Source of the DNA: Fuerstiella sp.
Lineage (GTDB): Bacteria; Planctomycetota; Planctomycetia; Planctomycetales; Planctomycetaceae
DNA: 64,000 nt
Direction: 5' to 3'
NCBI GenBank assembly: GCA_029941865.1
Contig: JAPYTO010000001.1
Coordinates: 1 to 64,000 of the forward strand
Of the stretch, positions 14,461 to 33,857 are shown one piece after another. The translations under genes were made by a program, and so were the position numbers. A model generated the notes under the pieces. The model was not told where the DNA came from. It ran no database searches and saw only the letters and a list, made by a program, of their open reading frames with translations. How positions within the stretch are numbered: the stretch's first letter is position 1; each line of letters begins with the position of its first letter.

Positions 14461-16962
14461 ATGAGAAAAGTAATCGCAATTTTTTTCTTCGCGCTGCTTA
14501 GCGGCTGCGGTTCCGAGACAGCGCCCGTTTCAACAGAAACGCTAGGCGAGAAGGAAGTCGTTCCCGTGGTGGAAAAACCACCGGTTCTGATGCGTGCCCC
14601 CGACTTTTCTCTGACGGATCAGTCCGGGCAATCGTATGGTTCAGACCAACTGCTGGGCCGTGCGTGCGTTGTGAATTTCATTTTTACGCGATGCCAGGCA
14701 ACCTGCCCCGTGCAGACAGCACGGTTGGCCGAACTTCAGGAGGAATGGAAGAGTCATCCGGCCTGGAACGACATCCGCATGCTCAGCATAACTGTCGATC
14801 CCGAGTATGACACGCCGGAGGTTCTGATGGAATATGCAGTGGCCGCCAAGGCTGACATGCATCACTGGAAATTTCTGACCGGTCCGAAGGACACGATATT
14901 GGCATTAACCAGGCAGGGCTTCAAGCTGCCGGTGGAAGAAGACAAAAATGCCAAAGGAGCTCCGATCACGCACAGTCCTGAATTTGTGTTGATCGACCCG
15001 CAGGGCCACATCCGAGGCTTCTACGACAGCGGTTCTGCGACGGAACTCGAACAGATGAAGCGCGATCTTTACACGGCACTGGAGGAACGCCTTCTGATTC
15101 ATAACGACCTGCTGAATCCAACGTGGGTGGAAAAACGGCGTGAGGCTCAACTCGCCACGGTCGACAAGTTCAATGTGTTTCACGATTTTTCGTTCTTCGA
15201 TCGTCGTCGCGAGAGTGGCATTACGTTCCGAAACCGCATCGTCGACGACGCGGGTCGCGAGCACAAACCATGCCACTACGATCACGGAAACGGTATTGCC
15301 ATCGGTGATGTTGACGGTGACGGATTACACGATGTGTACTTTGTCACACAGGTGGGAGGCAACGAACTGTGGAAGAATCACGGGGACGGAACTTTCGAGA
15401 ACATGACTGAAACCGCTGGCGTTGCGGTCAGTGATCGGATCGGTGTGTCAGCGTCGTTTGCGGATATCGACAACGATGGAGACGCTGACCTGTACGTTAC
15501 GAATGTACGCAGTCCCAACGTTCTTTTCGAGAACGACGGCAAGGGAAACTTCACCGACATTTCTTCGGCGTCCGGTCTCGACTACGACGGGCATTCGTCA
15601 TCCGCCGTGTTCTTCGACTATAACCGTGACGGTCGACTGGATTTGTTCCTGGTGAACGTCGGTAAGTACACAACGGATAAATCGACAACGGTCATTAACG
15701 ATCGGTTCACCGGTCCTGATGACCGTGCATATTCATACAACGTGGCCAACCCGGATGCGTTTGCGGCACACCTGAAGCCCGAGCGTTCTGAAAGCAGCGT
15801 CCTGTTCGAGAATCAGGGGGGCAATCGATTTGTCGATGTTTCCGCCCGAGTCGACCTGCAGGATTCATCGTGGTCGGGTGATGCCAGTCCACTGGACGTT
15901 AACAAAGATGGCTGGCCCGATCTTTACGTGCTGAATATGCAGGGACATGACGAGTACTATGAGAATGAAAAAGGGCAACGATTCGTAAAGAAGAGTCGCG
16001 AGATATTTCCTGCGTCGCCATGGGGGGCAATGGGAATTAAGGTCTTCGACTTCGACAACGATGGTCGGCTCGACATCTATCTGACCGATATGCACACAGA
16101 CATGGGCGATCTTGCCGATCCGAAAAACGAAAAGCTCAAGACACCCAAAGAGCAGTTTGCGCCGGAAATATTAAATTCCGATGGCAATCACGTCATGGGG
16201 AATGCGTTCTTTCAGCAGCAGCAGGACGGCACTTATAAGGAAATCTCCAGTCGCATTGGAGCGGAAACTTACTGGCCGTGGGGCCTGAGCGTTGGCGATC
16301 TGAATGCCGACGGCTTCGAGGACGTGTTTGTAACTGCCAGTATGAATTTCCCATTCCGCTATGCCATCAATTCCGTGTTACTGAACAATGAAGGCCGCGA
16401 GTTTCTGGATGCTGAGTACCTGCTGGGTGTCGAACCGCGACGTGCCGATCGGACGGCCGTCCCTTGGTTCGAATTTGATGTAGCAGGAAAGGACCGCGAG
16501 TTAGCAGAAGCGTATCGAGCCAAGGGTGCAAATGTCACGCGAATCGCCGCATGGGGCGCGCTAGGGACACGTTCGTCCGCTATTTTTGATATAGATAACG
16601 ACGGTGACCTCGACATTATCACTAACGACTTTAATTCCGAGCCCATGGTGCTCGTCAGCAATCTGATGGAGAAAGAACACCGGAATCATTTCCTGAAGAT
16701 TGACCTGACGGGAATATCATCAAATCGTGACGGTTTGGGGGCCACAGTTACCGTCCACACAGCAACGCAACGCTATGTAAAGGTCTACGATGGCAAGTCA
16801 GGGTACCTGTCGCAAAGCAGTTGCCCTCTGTACTTCGGCTTGGGTACGTCCAGCGATGTCGATCGCATCGAGATCCAATGGCCGTCCGGGCAATCACAGA
16901 TCGTGACCGGCCCGGTTACTGTGGATACGGTGCTTGAGATAACGGAACCCAAGGCACCGTAA
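14461..16962 (+). CDS. Fusion lipoprotein: N-terminal SCO1/SenC thioredoxin-fold domain + FG-GAP/VCBS repeats + C-terminal ASPIC/UnbV domain
   Basis: CQATC (CxxxC) plus 'ITHSPEFVLIDPQG' (SCO His); repeated DxDxDG motifs; C-terminal 'GLGTSSDVDRIEIQWPSGQSQ'. Confidence 0.9.
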   Translation: MRKVIAIFFFALLSGCGSETAPVSTETLGEKEVVPVVEKPPVLMRAPDFSLTDQSGQSYGSDQLLGRACVVNFIFTRCQATCPVQTARLAELQEEWKSHPAWNDIRMLSITVDPEYDTPEVLMEYAVAAKADMHHWKFLTGPKDTILALTRQGFKLPVEEDKNAKGAPITHSPEFVLIDPQGHIRGFYDSGSATELEQMKRDLYTALEERLLIHNDLLNPTWVEKRREAQLATVDKFNVFHDFSFFDRRRESGITFRNRIVDDAGREHKPCHYDHGNGIAIGDVDGDGLHDVYFVTQVGGNELWKNHGDGTFENMTETAGVAVSDRIGVSASFADIDNDGDADLYVTNVRSPNVLFENDGKGNFTDISSASGLDYDGHSSSAVFFDYNRDGRLDLFLVNVGKYTTDKSTTVINDRFTGPDDRAYSYNVANPDAFAAHLKPERSESSVLFENQGGNRFVDVSARVDLQDSSWSGDASPLDVNKDGWPDLYVLNMQGHDEYYENEKGQRFVKKSREIFPASPWGAMGIKVFDFDNDGRLDIYLTDMHTDMGDLADPKNEKLKTPKEQFAPEILNSDGNHVMGNAFFQQQQDGTYKEISSRIGAETYWPWGLSVGDLNADGFEDVFVTASMNFPFRYAINSVLLNNEGREFLDAEYLLGVEPRRADRTAVPWFEFDVAGKDRELAEAYRAKGANVTRIAAWGALGTRSSAIFDIDNDGDLDIITNDFNSEPMVLVSNLMEKEHRNHFLKIDLTGISSNRDGLGATVTVHTATQRYVKVYDGKSGYLSQSSCPLYFGLGTSSDVDRIEIQWPSGQSQIVTGPVTVDTVLEITEPKAP

Positions 16963-20286: not shown

Positions 20287-20658
20287 CAGTGCGACCGCGT
20301 GGTTCGTCGCCGGTTGCTATCGGACACGACGACTGTCGTTAGCCGCGAAATTTCTTCCGTCGGTTTCACCCACGGCTAAGTGCTTTTGCGGCTCCGCCGC
20401 AGGTTGTTTACATTGTGTGTCAACGTCAGTCCGCCGCTGCTGATAATCACTGGGCGGTTACGTCTGCGAGCCTCAAAGCGAACCTGGACCGACCTGCAAC
20501 GCTCTCACTCCCTGCAGATACCTTCGGCTCAGACTCTTGATTTTTCCTGATCAAACACTTGTGTGGTACAGTGAGCCCCACTCAGCGGATGAACCGTTGC
20601 GGCACCATCGATTCTCCGACGTTTTGTTGTCTAAGTCATAATCTGATAAAATGAACGC

Positions 20659-21837
20659 ATGAAAACGCCCAGATCGTTGATTGCCCGATGGCCGCTGCTT
20701 AGCACTGCCGGAGCGTTGCTGCTCATCAGCATCTGGTGGTTTGCTGGCAAGTCCGCGCCGCCACCTGAACCGCATGGCCCGCCAGATCCGCCTGCGTTAA
20801 TCGCCAGAGAGACCAGATTCCTTGGTTCGGCGAAGTGTGGAGAATGCCACGACAAGCAATTCCAGCACTATTTAACCAGTGGCCATTCAAAAACGTTGTC
20901 GTCCACACGCGATTTTCCGTTCCGTGATCGATTCGAGGGTATGACGTTTGCCGATGCAGAACGCCAAAAGACGTTTCACTATTTCCCGGAAGACGTCGGC
21001 ATGGAAGTGGTGGTTCCAGGGCTGTTTGGTGGAGACCGATTTCCTCTGCAATTCGCGTTTGGATCAGGAGAACACGCAATTACGTTTGTGACGCTGACTC
21101 CGGATGGCACGGAGGTGCCGGCAGGAATTGAACACCGTGTTTCGTGGTTCACTGGCCAGGACCAGGCTGGTCTCACTCCTGGCCAACTCGGCGGGCCGGC
21201 CCATCAGGACATCGAATATTTCGGCCGCGTTATTCGAGGAGAGACTCTGGAGCGTTGCTTCGAATGCCATACCACTTCGGGGAGGATTGAAGGTGACCAT
21301 CTGGTCGACCTCATTCCGAATGTCGGCTGCGAAAGCTGCCATACCGACAGTGCCCCCCACGCGGCTTTGATGCAGGATAGGAATCCGGCTGATGCTGACG
21401 CCGGTTTTGAACAACGACCATGGCGTACCACGGACCAAATACAGATATGTGCTCGATGTCATCGCGGCGAGGACTCAGTCAGGAAGAGTGAGATCACGCG
21501 GGAAAATCCGAAAATCGTACGGTATCAGCCAGTCGGCCTGGGGCAGTCGAAATGCTACGTCCAGTCCGGGCAACGACTGCTGTGTTCTACCTGTCATAAC
21601 CCTCATCAGCATGCAGCCCGACAGGCGACCGTGCAATACGAAAAAAAGTGCCTGCAATGTCATTCCGTGTCGCCGCATTCCGCGCGGTGCTCCGTGTCGC
21701 CGGATTCCGGGTGCATTTCCTGTCACATGCCTCGCGTCGAGATTCATCCGTCAATCTCGTTTCACGATCATTGGATCCGAGTACGGAACGACACCGATCC
21801 TCCTGCCGTCCAGGGTGAGACTGATGTCAGACAATAA
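20659..21837 (+). CDS. Multiheme c-type cytochrome (cytochrome c554-like), 7 CxxCH motifs
   Basis: CGECH, CFECH, CESCH, CARCH, CSTCH, CLQCH, CISCH; N-terminal TM anchor. Confidence 0.92.
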   Translation: MKTPRSLIARWPLLSTAGALLLISIWWFAGKSAPPPEPHGPPDPPALIARETRFLGSAKCGECHDKQFQHYLTSGHSKTLSSTRDFPFRDRFEGMTFADAERQKTFHYFPEDVGMEVVVPGLFGGDRFPLQFAFGSGEHAITFVTLTPDGTEVPAGIEHRVSWFTGQDQAGLTPGQLGGPAHQDIEYFGRVIRGETLERCFECHTTSGRIEGDHLVDLIPNVGCESCHTDSAPHAALMQDRNPADADAGFEQRPWRTTDQIQICARCHRGEDSVRKSEITRENPKIVRYQPVGLGQSKCYVQSGQRLLCSTCHNPHQHAARQATVQYEKKCLQCHSVSPHSARCSVSPDSGCISCHMPRVEIHPSISFHDHWIRVRNDTDPPAVQGETDVRQ

Positions 21838-23683
21838 CCGGAATCGAAAACGCAAGTCCGCGATCGAGTGTCAGGCATCGTCACCAACGCAGCGGCCTGC
21901 CGTTGGGAGGTCGAATCGCCGGATATGGTATTTTCGAATTGGGGCACTGGTGTTGCCGATAGCCCTCATTCTGTTCGTAGAGACACTGCTCGTCTCGTTT
22001 GACATCGGCAACGACCTGGGCCTCTTCGTAAAGGTGCCAGGAGCCCCCAAAATACTTGACTATCAGGTCAATCCGCGGGCGGAGGAGAGCTACTTTTCGG
22101 GGCGCAAACTGGCTGGACCGGAGCCGAAGCGATTCGACCTTCCACGGCCTGATGGCGTTTATCGGATTGTCGTTGTCGGGGGCTCAACAGTGCTGGGATT
22201 CCCCTATCCGCCCGAACTTTCGTTTCCACGGCAAGTGGAGGTCTTGCTGAACCAGCAGAGCTCGCCCGAAAGATTCGAGATCATCAATGTTGGAATGGTC
22301 GCCATCAATAGTTTCAGTGTGGCAGACGTTGTCAAACAGTCCGTTGTGATGCAACCCGATCTGATCATCGTGCACACCGGCCACAACGAGTTTTACGGGC
22401 CGGAGGGAGTTGCGTCCACAACCGCGACAGCGCTAAAGTCTCAGTCTTCGCTGGCTGCAAAGGTCCGGCGACTGCGCCTATTCCAACTGATTGCCTCCGG
22501 ATTTGTCGATGAGCCATCCGACCAGAAAGATTTGATGGCAGAGCTGCCTGCGAGCGTGACCATTCCGCGAGATGGGCCTGCCTTTAAGCGGGCAGAACAG
22601 TACTATCGAGAAAACCTGGAGCGGATCGTCGCCACGGCATCCTCCGCGAAAATTCCGATCGTACTTACGACGGTGGCGTCAAATTTGAGCGGTCATTCTC
22701 CAGTTAGTTTTCATCTACCGGAACAACTCGCTGCCGACGAATTGAAACACTGGAGGGCGTTTTTCGACCGGGGACGGCAGCTCACAGTGGAGAAACTGTG
22801 GCAGGAGGCGCATGACCAACTCAAACAAGCTGAGGCGATTTCGAACGATTCCTCGCTATTGCATTTCCGCATGGGGCAATGCCTGGAAGCATTGGAGCAA
22901 TATCCGGAATCGCGAAAGGAGTTTGAGCTGGCCCGAGACCTTGATGGCTGCCGATTTCGGGCTCCCGGCTCGTTCCGCGGGATCGTTCGCGACGTGGCGA
23001 CGCAGACAGCTCAGTCCAACGTTTTCTTTTTCGATTCCGCCGAACAGTTGGCCGTCGAAGCTGGTCCCGCGGCGCTTGGGTCCAACTTCTTTCTCGAGCA
23101 CGTCCACTACAATCTTGATGGTCACCGGCGGCTGGCCATCATTCTGAGTCGCTTTGTCCAGCAGCAGGTCTTGCAACGACGGTGGAATGTCGCCGCAGTC
23201 CCGACGGACCTGGGACTTGACCAGCTGCTGGGACTGCTGCCGGAAGACCGCGTATCAGGGCAGTCCTATGCGCTAAAGGTAATGAACGTCTTTCCGATGA
23301 CGAAAACATTTGACGTCAACGTACATCGGGACGCGATTGTCGTGAAAATCCAGCGGGAACTCAGCATGTTGGACACGGAACAGCAACAGATCTTTGCGAG
23401 TCTTTCGCTGGATGACATGGCCTCCCGGCTCGCGGCAGCGCTCGCGGACTGTTTTCGCGACAAACGACAATTCACTCGGGAGTTGTTCTATCGCCGCTGC
23501 GATCAAATCCGCCGACCATGGGAGTCCGACGTCGCCTTTCGCCTCGCCCGCTGTCTGGCCGAATCAGACGACCATCTGAATGAGGCAATTGAGCGTTGTC
23601 GGCGGACACTGCAGTTGAACCCGCAACTCGCTGCGGCAGAAAAACTATTGACGCAATTGACGGCAGGCTTGCCACAGGAATGA
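21824..23683 (+). CDS. Membrane-anchored SGNH/GDSL hydrolase-like protein with TPR segments
   Basis: 'YRIVVVGGSTVLGFPYPPELSFPRQVEVLL' and 'PDLIIVHTGHNEFYGP'; TPR-like C-terminal half; start inside the cytochrome ORF (14-bp overlap). The longer ORF from 21392 is out of frame with the cytochrome and not needed. Confidence 0.85.
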   Translation: MSDNNRNRKRKSAIECQASSPTQRPAVGRSNRRIWYFRIGALVLPIALILFVETLLVSFDIGNDLGLFVKVPGAPKILDYQVNPRAEESYFSGRKLAGPEPKRFDLPRPDGVYRIVVVGGSTVLGFPYPPELSFPRQVEVLLNQQSSPERFEIINVGMVAINSFSVADVVKQSVVMQPDLIIVHTGHNEFYGPEGVASTTATALKSQSSLAAKVRRLRLFQLIASGFVDEPSDQKDLMAELPASVTIPRDGPAFKRAEQYYRENLERIVATASSAKIPIVLTTVASNLSGHSPVSFHLPEQLAADELKHWRAFFDRGRQLTVEKLWQEAHDQLKQAEAISNDSSLLHFRMGQCLEALEQYPESRKEFELARDLDGCRFRAPGSFRGIVRDVATQTAQSNVFFFDSAEQLAVEAGPAALGSNFFLEHVHYNLDGHRRLAIILSRFVQQQVLQRRWNVAAVPTDLGLDQLLGLLPEDRVSGQSYALKVMNVFPMTKTFDVNVHRDAIVVKIQRELSMLDTEQQQIFASLSLDDMASRLAAALADCFRDKRQFTRELFYRRCDQIRRPWESDVAFRLARCLAESDDHLNEAIERCRRTLQLNPQLAAAEKLLTQLTAGLPQE

Positions 23684-31436: not shown

Positions 31437-33857
31437 TTATTCCGATGTCACCGGAGCGAGCAACTCGAACTCCTCTGCTCCCTCAACAATCTTAATGGCG
31501 CAGTCAACCGGCAGGTCCTCGAATACCTGCCGTTTGCCCGTGGGCCAGCGGATTGTCAGCTTGTCGATGCGATCTGCCGTCCCCACGGCAATATTCAGGC
31601 GGGCCGGGCCCTGGCCCATGAATCCATTCGGCGCAAAAAGATCGCGGACGATCGTTTTGCCGTTGGCTTCGGCAATCGCTCGCGCACCGATCGCCCTGTG
31701 GTTGCTTGCGACACCCCTTAATCGAAGTTCGACGCGGTGATTTCCTTCAGGAAACTGATTCAGGAATAGTCGTAACGGCCCACCACCGACGGACCCGACC
31801 AGCAAATCGGGCGCGAGGTCGCCATCGAAGTCCCCGACCATCACGGATCGCGAATCAGAATCAATACTAGCCTGCGATGCAAACGACGCATCCAGAAACC
31901 GTGTGCCGTCAACATTCAGAAACAGACGATTCGTCTCAAAGGCACTCAGGTTGTCTCTCTGCTGTGGCATGGCGAACGGATGCGTCCAAAACTCACCGGC
32001 AGCCGAGTCGATTTTTCCGAGCGGCTCTATCTTGCACGTACGGTCCAAAGGCTGTGACACGACAGCCCTCCACAAGCACGTTCATCCATCCGGTTTGTGA
32101 CGATTAAAGCTCAGGAAACCCGTTGTTGCATACAAGTCCAGCAATCCATCGCCGTCAAAATCCGCGACGGCGGGAGCGTACGCCCAGCCAACGGCGTTGA
32201 CACCAAGCTGTTCACTGAGTTCCTGAAACTGCCGCACATCGCCCTGAGTCGAATACATACGATTGCCTGCGCAGGATCCTACCAACTGCTCGTAGATCCC
32301 CGCAGGATAATCCGGGGCGGAAACCTGCGAAATAATTCTCCGCCCCATTTTTGAATACATGTTTGCGACATATATTTCCGGTACGCCATCTCCGTTTATG
32401 TCTCCGGAAGCGACTCCCATGCTCGTGGCAAAATCACCCACTCCGGAATCGTCGGCAACGTCTTCAAAAGAACCATCACCCTGATTGATCAACAGTGAAT
32501 TCCGGGCAAAGTCATTTGCAACATACAGGTCGGGATAATGATCATCGTTAGCATGCAACCATGTGGCCGCAAAACTGTGCCGTTTGCCGCTGGTGGCCTT
32601 CGCGAAACGCGCCATTTCGATGAATGTCCCGTCACCTCGGTTGCGCCACAGTTGATTGACGGCTCCGGTATCGTCATCGCCGACCCACGCTGGTGGCTTT
32701 CCGTCCCGGATCGCGTCACCGTTTTTGTCTCGCTGGTAGAGCACGTATAAGTCCAGCAAACCATCTCCGTCGTAGTCCGCAACGACGCACCCCATCGGGT
32801 TAAACGCAAATCTGAGGCCGCCATTGTTTGCGACCGGCTCAAAACTTTTACCCTCGACGTTTCGAAATAAAGATTCTCCCAATATCAAATCGACGTCTCC
32901 ATCATTATCAAAGTCAATCCAGCAGGCCAAATAGGCACGCCTGTCCGTCTGGAACGCGTTCGATAGTCCCAGCGTCTCTGCAACGTCCTCGTATTGCCCC
33001 ACTTGTGAGTTCCACTGCAGCACGAATCGCTGCTGATCCGCGGTCGCGAGGGCAATATCCAAAAAACCATCGGAATTGAAGTCCTCGACCGCGGTCTGAA
33101 AACGATACTGTCGCACCATTTCAGACCTGCAAGTCCAGTTGTCCGTGATCGGCAGTCGGTCCAATCCAACGCGGGACGTGGCCTCATGCATCAATGCCTG
33201 TCGGCCGCTCCGGACTGTTTCCGAATCGATACGCCAGGACTCGATGATCCGCCCGGCGACAATGTCGTCGTCATCGGAAAATCGGCAGCGCATACTGCCA
33301 TTTGACATGTATGTAATTGGCTCGCCTGCCGAGTTGGTGCCACTGAAGGTGAGCAACACGTTTAACTGCCACGTGTCCACCGAATCTTCATCCACGACAT
33401 GAGCGATCTGCAATACGCGAAACCGCCCATTTCCATTTTCTGGCACTGCGTGGATGCCCTCGATCAGGAATCGGGAAAAACCATCGGCATCAACGTTTGT
33501 CGAGCCGGTCGTGCCCACAGCGTAGGTGGTCTCGGTAATTGACGATTTTTCGACGGTGGTTGCAGAGGTCCGTTGCGGCACGACGCCGGAAAATCCAGCA
33601 TGGAAAAAACCGGCCAACTGATCTGTGGAGCGTTTCTGAAGTTCGGCCACCAGTTTGCGTCCGACGTGCGTTTCGATTTCAAACGTTACGTGCTCGGCGT
33701 CCCAGATTTCCTTCTGTTTCGCTTCCCCCAAACCGGTGAATCCAGTGGGGATATCAACCTTCAGTGGCGAAAGCCGCCGCCACTGCCTCGACTGCCACCA
33801 ACCTGCGCCAGCGCAAAGAATCAGTAGCGTCAGAATTAGAACTCGATGTTGTTTCAT
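31437..33857 (-). CDS. CRTAC1 family (FG-GAP + ASPIC/UnbV) protein with one in-frame TGA (32082-32084): candidate selenoprotein, otherwise a nonsense-interrupted gene
   Basis: ORFs 32082-33857 and 31437-32075 share one frame (2421 nt = 807 codons) and together form one ASPIC protein: ...DFDGDGLLDLYATTGFLSFNRHKPDG-[TGA]-TCLWRAVVSQPL...VGDFDGDLAPDLLVG...LTIRWPTGKRQVFEDL. Confidence 0.8.
32047..32084 (-). promoter_or_regulatory. Candidate bacterial SECIS element directly 3' of the in-frame TGA
   Basis: Minus strand: TGA-acgtgcttgtg-GAGGGCTGT-CGTGTC-ACAGCCTTT; 9-bp stem (two G-U pairs), 6-nt apical loop starting 20 nt after the TGA with G in loop position 2. Confidence 0.55.

Follow-up and report, generated by a model that had tools for sequence, protein, structure and literature searches.

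A stretch of 64,000 nt from the genome of a Fuerstiella sp. (here called the window) carries, on its minus strand, two open reading frames that share one frame and are separated by a single TGA. The question is whether this codon ends a protein or is read within a longer one. A sequence-only reading had proposed one CRTAC1/ASPIC protein in which the TGA encodes selenocysteine, and comparison with homologues, the decoding genes of the same organism and RNA-level selection on the hairpin that follows the codon all back that proposal. The gene very probably encodes a selenoprotein with selenocysteine at UGA592. We refer to this protein and its relatives as Sec-CRTAC.

One reading frame across the TGA

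Translated with TGA as U, the frame from 33857 to 31437 (minus strand) encodes 806 residues, contains a single TGA and closes with a TAA stop; the 807 codons counted earlier hold as a length that includes this final stop. FG-GAP repeats lie upstream of the TGA and the UnbV_ASPIC domain downstream, the register is unchanged between them, and the predicted selenocysteine falls in the last third of the FG-GAP region, ahead of the ASPIC domain (Table 1). The Pfam matches (E-values of 7.6e-39 for FG-GAP_3 and 1.1e-14 for UnbV_ASPIC) pass the curated cut-offs, with 132.6 bits against 26.9 for FG-GAP and 54.5 against 23.4 for UnbV_ASPIC. Translation and domain content thus agree with the claim that the two minus-strand frames are one protein split by a single TGA. 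The hydrophobic residues 1-27 are likely a signal peptide or membrane anchor, and the N-terminal domain matches no Pfam family. An Rfam scan of the whole window returned no matches. An AlphaFold model built from six aligned family sequences has a pLDDT of 43, too poor for use in a fold search; by sequence, human CRTAC1 (PDB 9etn) was the sole relative with a solved structure to be found.

Table 1. Positions of the Sec-CRTAC gene, its parts and the related genes in the window
Feature	Position	Strand	Basis or remark
Sec-CRTAC coding sequence	31437..33857	-	Translation; Pfam FG-GAP_3, FG-GAP and UnbV_ASPIC; full-length homologues with TGA at the matching place
UGA codon 592, predicted selenocysteine	32082..32084	-	Nearly every homologue has TGA or a Cys codon here, TAA/TAG never
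N-terminal hydrophobic segment, residues 1-27	33777..33857	-	Sequence inspection
Top-scoring FG-GAP_3 repeat of the propeller, residues 437-497	32367..32549	-	Pfam
UnbV_ASPIC domain, residues 722-785	31503..31694	-	Pfam
Bacterial SECIS hairpin (predicted)	32047..32070	-	Fold; synonymous constraint; compensatory pairs
SECIS core stem, 6 bp	32067-32062 / 32055-32050	-	Fold
SECIS apical loop CGUGUC, 6 nt	32061-32056	-	Fold
Heptaheme cytochrome c, seven CXXCH	20650..21834	+	Possible functional neighbour; homologues near Sec-CRTAC in loci L009, L013, L235, L236 and L241
TPR-like gene homologue	21815..23683	+	74% identical to the gene between cytochrome and Sec-CRTAC in L009
CRTAC gene, SCO1/SenC fused to FG-GAP and ASPIC	14461-16962	+	

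The TGA column across Planctomycetota

A profile of the TGA region was searched against 394 class genomes and 393 phylum genomes, and matches 87 and 103 of them, respectively. The latter amount to roughly one in four of the Planctomycetota genomes sampled, most of them with the TGA, in which taking UGA as a stop would truncate these proteins. Among the 170 distinct homologous stretches read out from the phylum, 125 contain a single TGA, on the conserved column, 44 contain no stop, and one (L229) contains two TGAs beyond that of the column. Neither TAA nor TAG occurs at the column or elsewhere in these stretches. In the 162 stretches scoring over 60 bits, the column codon is TGA in 124, Cys in 23 and another residue in 15, namely Glu (5), Asn (4), Gly (2) and one each of Asp, Gln, His and Ala. 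Full-length close relatives outside the window genome (45-82% identity) all have TGA at the matching codon, as do more distant paralogues, some of them within the window genome, and the Cys homologues run uninterrupted through the position. When 27 diverse members are aligned, 17 columns do not vary, and this is one of them if Sec and Cys are counted together; every one of the 125 TGA stretches also has Asp at position -2. The expectation that homologues would carry TGA or Cys at this place is thus borne out in close and distant relatives.

If UGA592 were a true stop, the product would be a 591-residue protein followed by a separate or vestigial reading frame. Annotation pipelines would call this stop, and TGA ends 12 of the 32 long reading frames in the window in the ordinary way. 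However, the part past the TGA retains the ASPIC domain and stays conserved throughout the family, the Cys homologues have no break at the column, and random stops would not be TGA in every one of 126 stop-bearing stretches; we regard termination as very improbable. A sequencing error or pseudogene might also be suspected, since the genome is a draft and the orthologue in G001:C59 (L076) has a frameshift, either real or a sequencing error, immediately ahead of its TGA (this orthologue is kept among the 125 TGA stretches, and the frameshift shifts its alignment by one codon). That explanation, the least probable of those weighed, is refuted by the presence of the TGA in independently assembled genomes, with identity as low as about 45%, and also in distant paralogues.

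The residues next to the codon differ among subfamilies, whose contexts include PDG-U-xC, DL-U-SFFW, VDL-U-SLWW and DDL-U-LPF. The UxC arrangement first seen in the window protein, and likened to the CxC motif of redox proteins, is conserved among PDGU proteins (58 of 59), occurs in 1 of 66 members of the other Sec subfamilies, and so does not define the family. In L229 (G419:C78), the TGAs lie at codons 345, 366 and 370 of the frame from base 1000; the second and third, 21 and 25 codons past the first, are either additional selenocysteines or sequence errors.

A quick tree of the 162 stretches, from a short alignment and with many weak forks, implies at least seven changes among Sec, Cys and other residues. 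The Cys forms make up essentially a single branch, and the Asp form L214 is nested in a Sec branch, suggesting that selenocysteine was replaced there. Copy number is high: G397 and G510 have ten Sec genes each, five of those in G510 in tandem on one contig, and single genomes thus devote up to ten Sec codons to this family. The window genome itself has at least five Sec-CRTAC genes and one Cys form. A Cys paralogue of the Sec proteins, with the sequence 'KDYCTRFWCHDIY', is retained in that genome (G000:C230, L079:2335-2920), with a run of N in the assembly just past the region. In place of the single candidate selenoprotein first proposed, there is a phylum-wide, multi-copy family, for which the selenocysteine reading itself holds.

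The hairpin and the decoding machinery

In the published model, a bacterial SECIS has an apical loop of 3-9 nt with G at loop position 1 or 2, an upper stem of 4-16 bp, a minimum free energy of at most -7.5 and a loop 16-37 nt from the UGA (PMC13188914). Folding of the 28-nt window hairpin gives a 6-nt loop, a 9-bp stem and -12.1 kcal/mol (z = -3.1, with none of 200 shuffles equally good), all within these limits, and returns the geometry proposed from the sequence, in which the loop starts 20 nt past the UGA and has G at its second position.

The stem is conserved beyond what the encoded protein demands. Counting nucleotides from the U of UGA, nt 18-23 pair with 30-35 around the loop CGUGUC in the PDGU subfamily, and nt 15-20 pair with 26-31 around GGUCG in the SFFW subfamily. 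An intact stem can form in 92% of the 49 PDGU genes against 2% in synonymous shuffles (z 17) and in 92% of the 36 SFFW genes against 4% (z 12), although these z-scores overstate independence, the sequences being related. Flanking synonymous sites vary, however, and common descent alone is therefore insufficient to explain the pattern. Compensatory changes occur between nt 21 and 32 (U-A to C-G; five), between nt 23 and 30 (four), and in SFFW between nt 20 and 26 (A-U to G-C; eight). In addition, codons +5 to +10 of Sec genes are under strong synonymous constraint (GCT in 45 of 49, TCA in 33 of 36), which is absent from most flanking codons and from the same codons of Cys genes; the hairpin itself is missing from Cys genes. 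Over all groups, a 5-bp stem is found in this region in 97% of Sec genes versus 39% of non-Sec genes. Folding energy over 54 nt gives no clear signal against synonymous shuffles (mean z of -0.36 and -0.09) because that span is wider than the hairpin, and the test of the specific stem is decisive. Selection acts at the RNA level on the hairpin that follows the TGA, and the SECIS-like structure noted from the letters alone is more than a chance fold.

The window genome encodes the full set of decoding components that the first proposal called for, namely selA (510 bits), selB (314), selD (260) and a tRNA-Sec with a UCA anticodon. On its contig C9, a span of less than 18 kb holds selA, selD, tRNA-Sec and also another Sec-CRTAC paralogue. 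We note that selD on this contig sits inside a 741-residue reading frame (L065:125-2350, G000:C9), compared with 311 positions in the family model, and is probably a fusion. Across the 394 class genomes, selA is found in 46 of the 49 that carry the TGA versus 182 of the 345 others (p = 3e-9), and in none of the five that hold only the Cys form. The three TGA genomes without selA are G282 (79% complete), G359 (59%) and G360 (99%), in none of which was selB found over the cut-off. The first two are incomplete, but G360, a near-complete draft with a Sec-CRTAC TGA gene and neither selA nor an over-cut-off selB found, speaks against the selenocysteine reading.

A suppressor or an altered code that inserts Trp or Cys at UGA would likewise supply the read-through that is needed, and relatives do have Cys at the column. 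Against this, UGA terminates ordinary genes in the window, each family gene has one UGA that is nearly always followed by a SECIS-like hairpin, none of the relatives seen has Trp at the column, and the Sec system is complete, which makes such decoding highly unlikely. For insertion of selenocysteine, the steps would be those in which SelB binds the hairpin and brings Sec-tRNA-Sec, the ribosome reads through UGA592, and the CRTAC1-like product, 806 residues long, contains one selenocysteine.

Possible roles of the selenocysteine and relation to known systems

To our knowledge, no biochemical activity has been established for bacterial CRTAC1/ASPIC proteins; the conserved selenocysteine marks a likely active residue and makes their function testable. 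Most selenoproteins are redox enzymes (PMC4807772, PMC13188914). A C-terminal TlpA/ResA-like AhpC-TSA/Redoxin domain occurs in each of the five distant Sec proteins that were scanned (SFFW, SGYY, LPF and L229 types) and suggests redox work outside the cytoplasm; this domain is absent from the window protein. The heptaheme cytochrome and the TPR-like gene adjoin Sec-CRTAC in several relatives and lie 8-13 kb from it in the window. A heptaheme cytochrome is near 6 of 23 Sec loci versus 0 of 20 control regions, but most of these loci come from closely related genomes and the window exceeds the other regions in length, so that the neighbourhood link is at most suggestive. Together with the SCO1/SenC fusion in the window, these neighbours and the TlpA-like fusions favour extracytoplasmic redox chemistry. 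Sec-CRTAC would then be exported, with the selenol as the active residue of a redox reaction outside the cytoplasm, probably served by thiol-disulfide partners of the TlpA/ResA type that are separate proteins in the window lineage, where the nearby heptaheme cytochrome may also be linked to it. We consider the chances of such a thiol-redox role to be evenly balanced.

The serious rival is that the propeller uses selenocysteine as a metal or cofactor ligand, or as a polar residue with a structural role, and that other lineages have Cys, Asp, Glu, Asn or His in its place. The Glu, Asn, Asp, Gln and His residues of non-Sec homologues, which are ill-suited to a simple thiol-redox role, keep a ligand in play, as do the invariant Asp at -2 and the lack of a UxC pair in most Sec subfamilies. 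Molybdenum enzymes, in which Sec, Cys, Ser and Asp interchange as metal ligand, offer a parallel. However, the thioredoxin-like domains fused to distant Sec subfamilies and the prevalence of redox enzymes among selenoproteins speak for the thiol-redox role, and the Asp, Glu and Asn forms could be inactive or re-purposed paralogues; we hold the ligand role to be possible, if rather doubtful. Tentatively, and with somewhat less than even confidence, we picture a phylum-wide, repeatedly duplicated set of exported propeller selenoenzymes with a novel chemistry outside the cytoplasm, in which Sec is catalytic or binds a metal or cofactor, Cys, acidic or amide residues substitute for it in lineages that lack Sec, and TlpA-like domains or cytochromes give electrons.

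The window protein matches no NCBIfam model (June 2026 release, including Sec families such as TsoB), and no Pfam family describes a Sec-containing CRTAC. The main text of the selenoproteome reviews consulted has no mention of CRTAC, ASPIC or FG-GAP, and literature of incomplete coverage yielded nothing relevant that joins CRTAC1, UnbV/ASPIC or FG-GAP with selenocysteine. The initial remark that no ASPIC/UnbV selenoprotein family is known therefore stands provisionally, and Sec-CRTAC is apparently a large, undescribed selenoprotein family across Planctomycetota. The TlpA/ResA-like domain of distant relatives has weak, sub-cut-off matches to NF041054 (WAxxUGC ResA-like) and NF045694 (TsoB), whereas the selenocysteine of Sec-CRTAC lies in the CRTAC part and not in a thioredoxin motif. 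Like CRTAC1/UnbV-ASPIC proteins (PF13517, PF01839, PF07593), Sec-CRTAC has FG-GAP repeats followed by UnbV_ASPIC; unlike the known members, which are not described as selenoproteins, it has a UGA late in the FG-GAP region with a predicted SECIS. With decoding of the E. coli formate dehydrogenase type, it shares the UGA, the hairpin 16-37 nt downstream and the small loop with an early G, and its genome shares SelA, SelB, SelD and tRNA-Sec.
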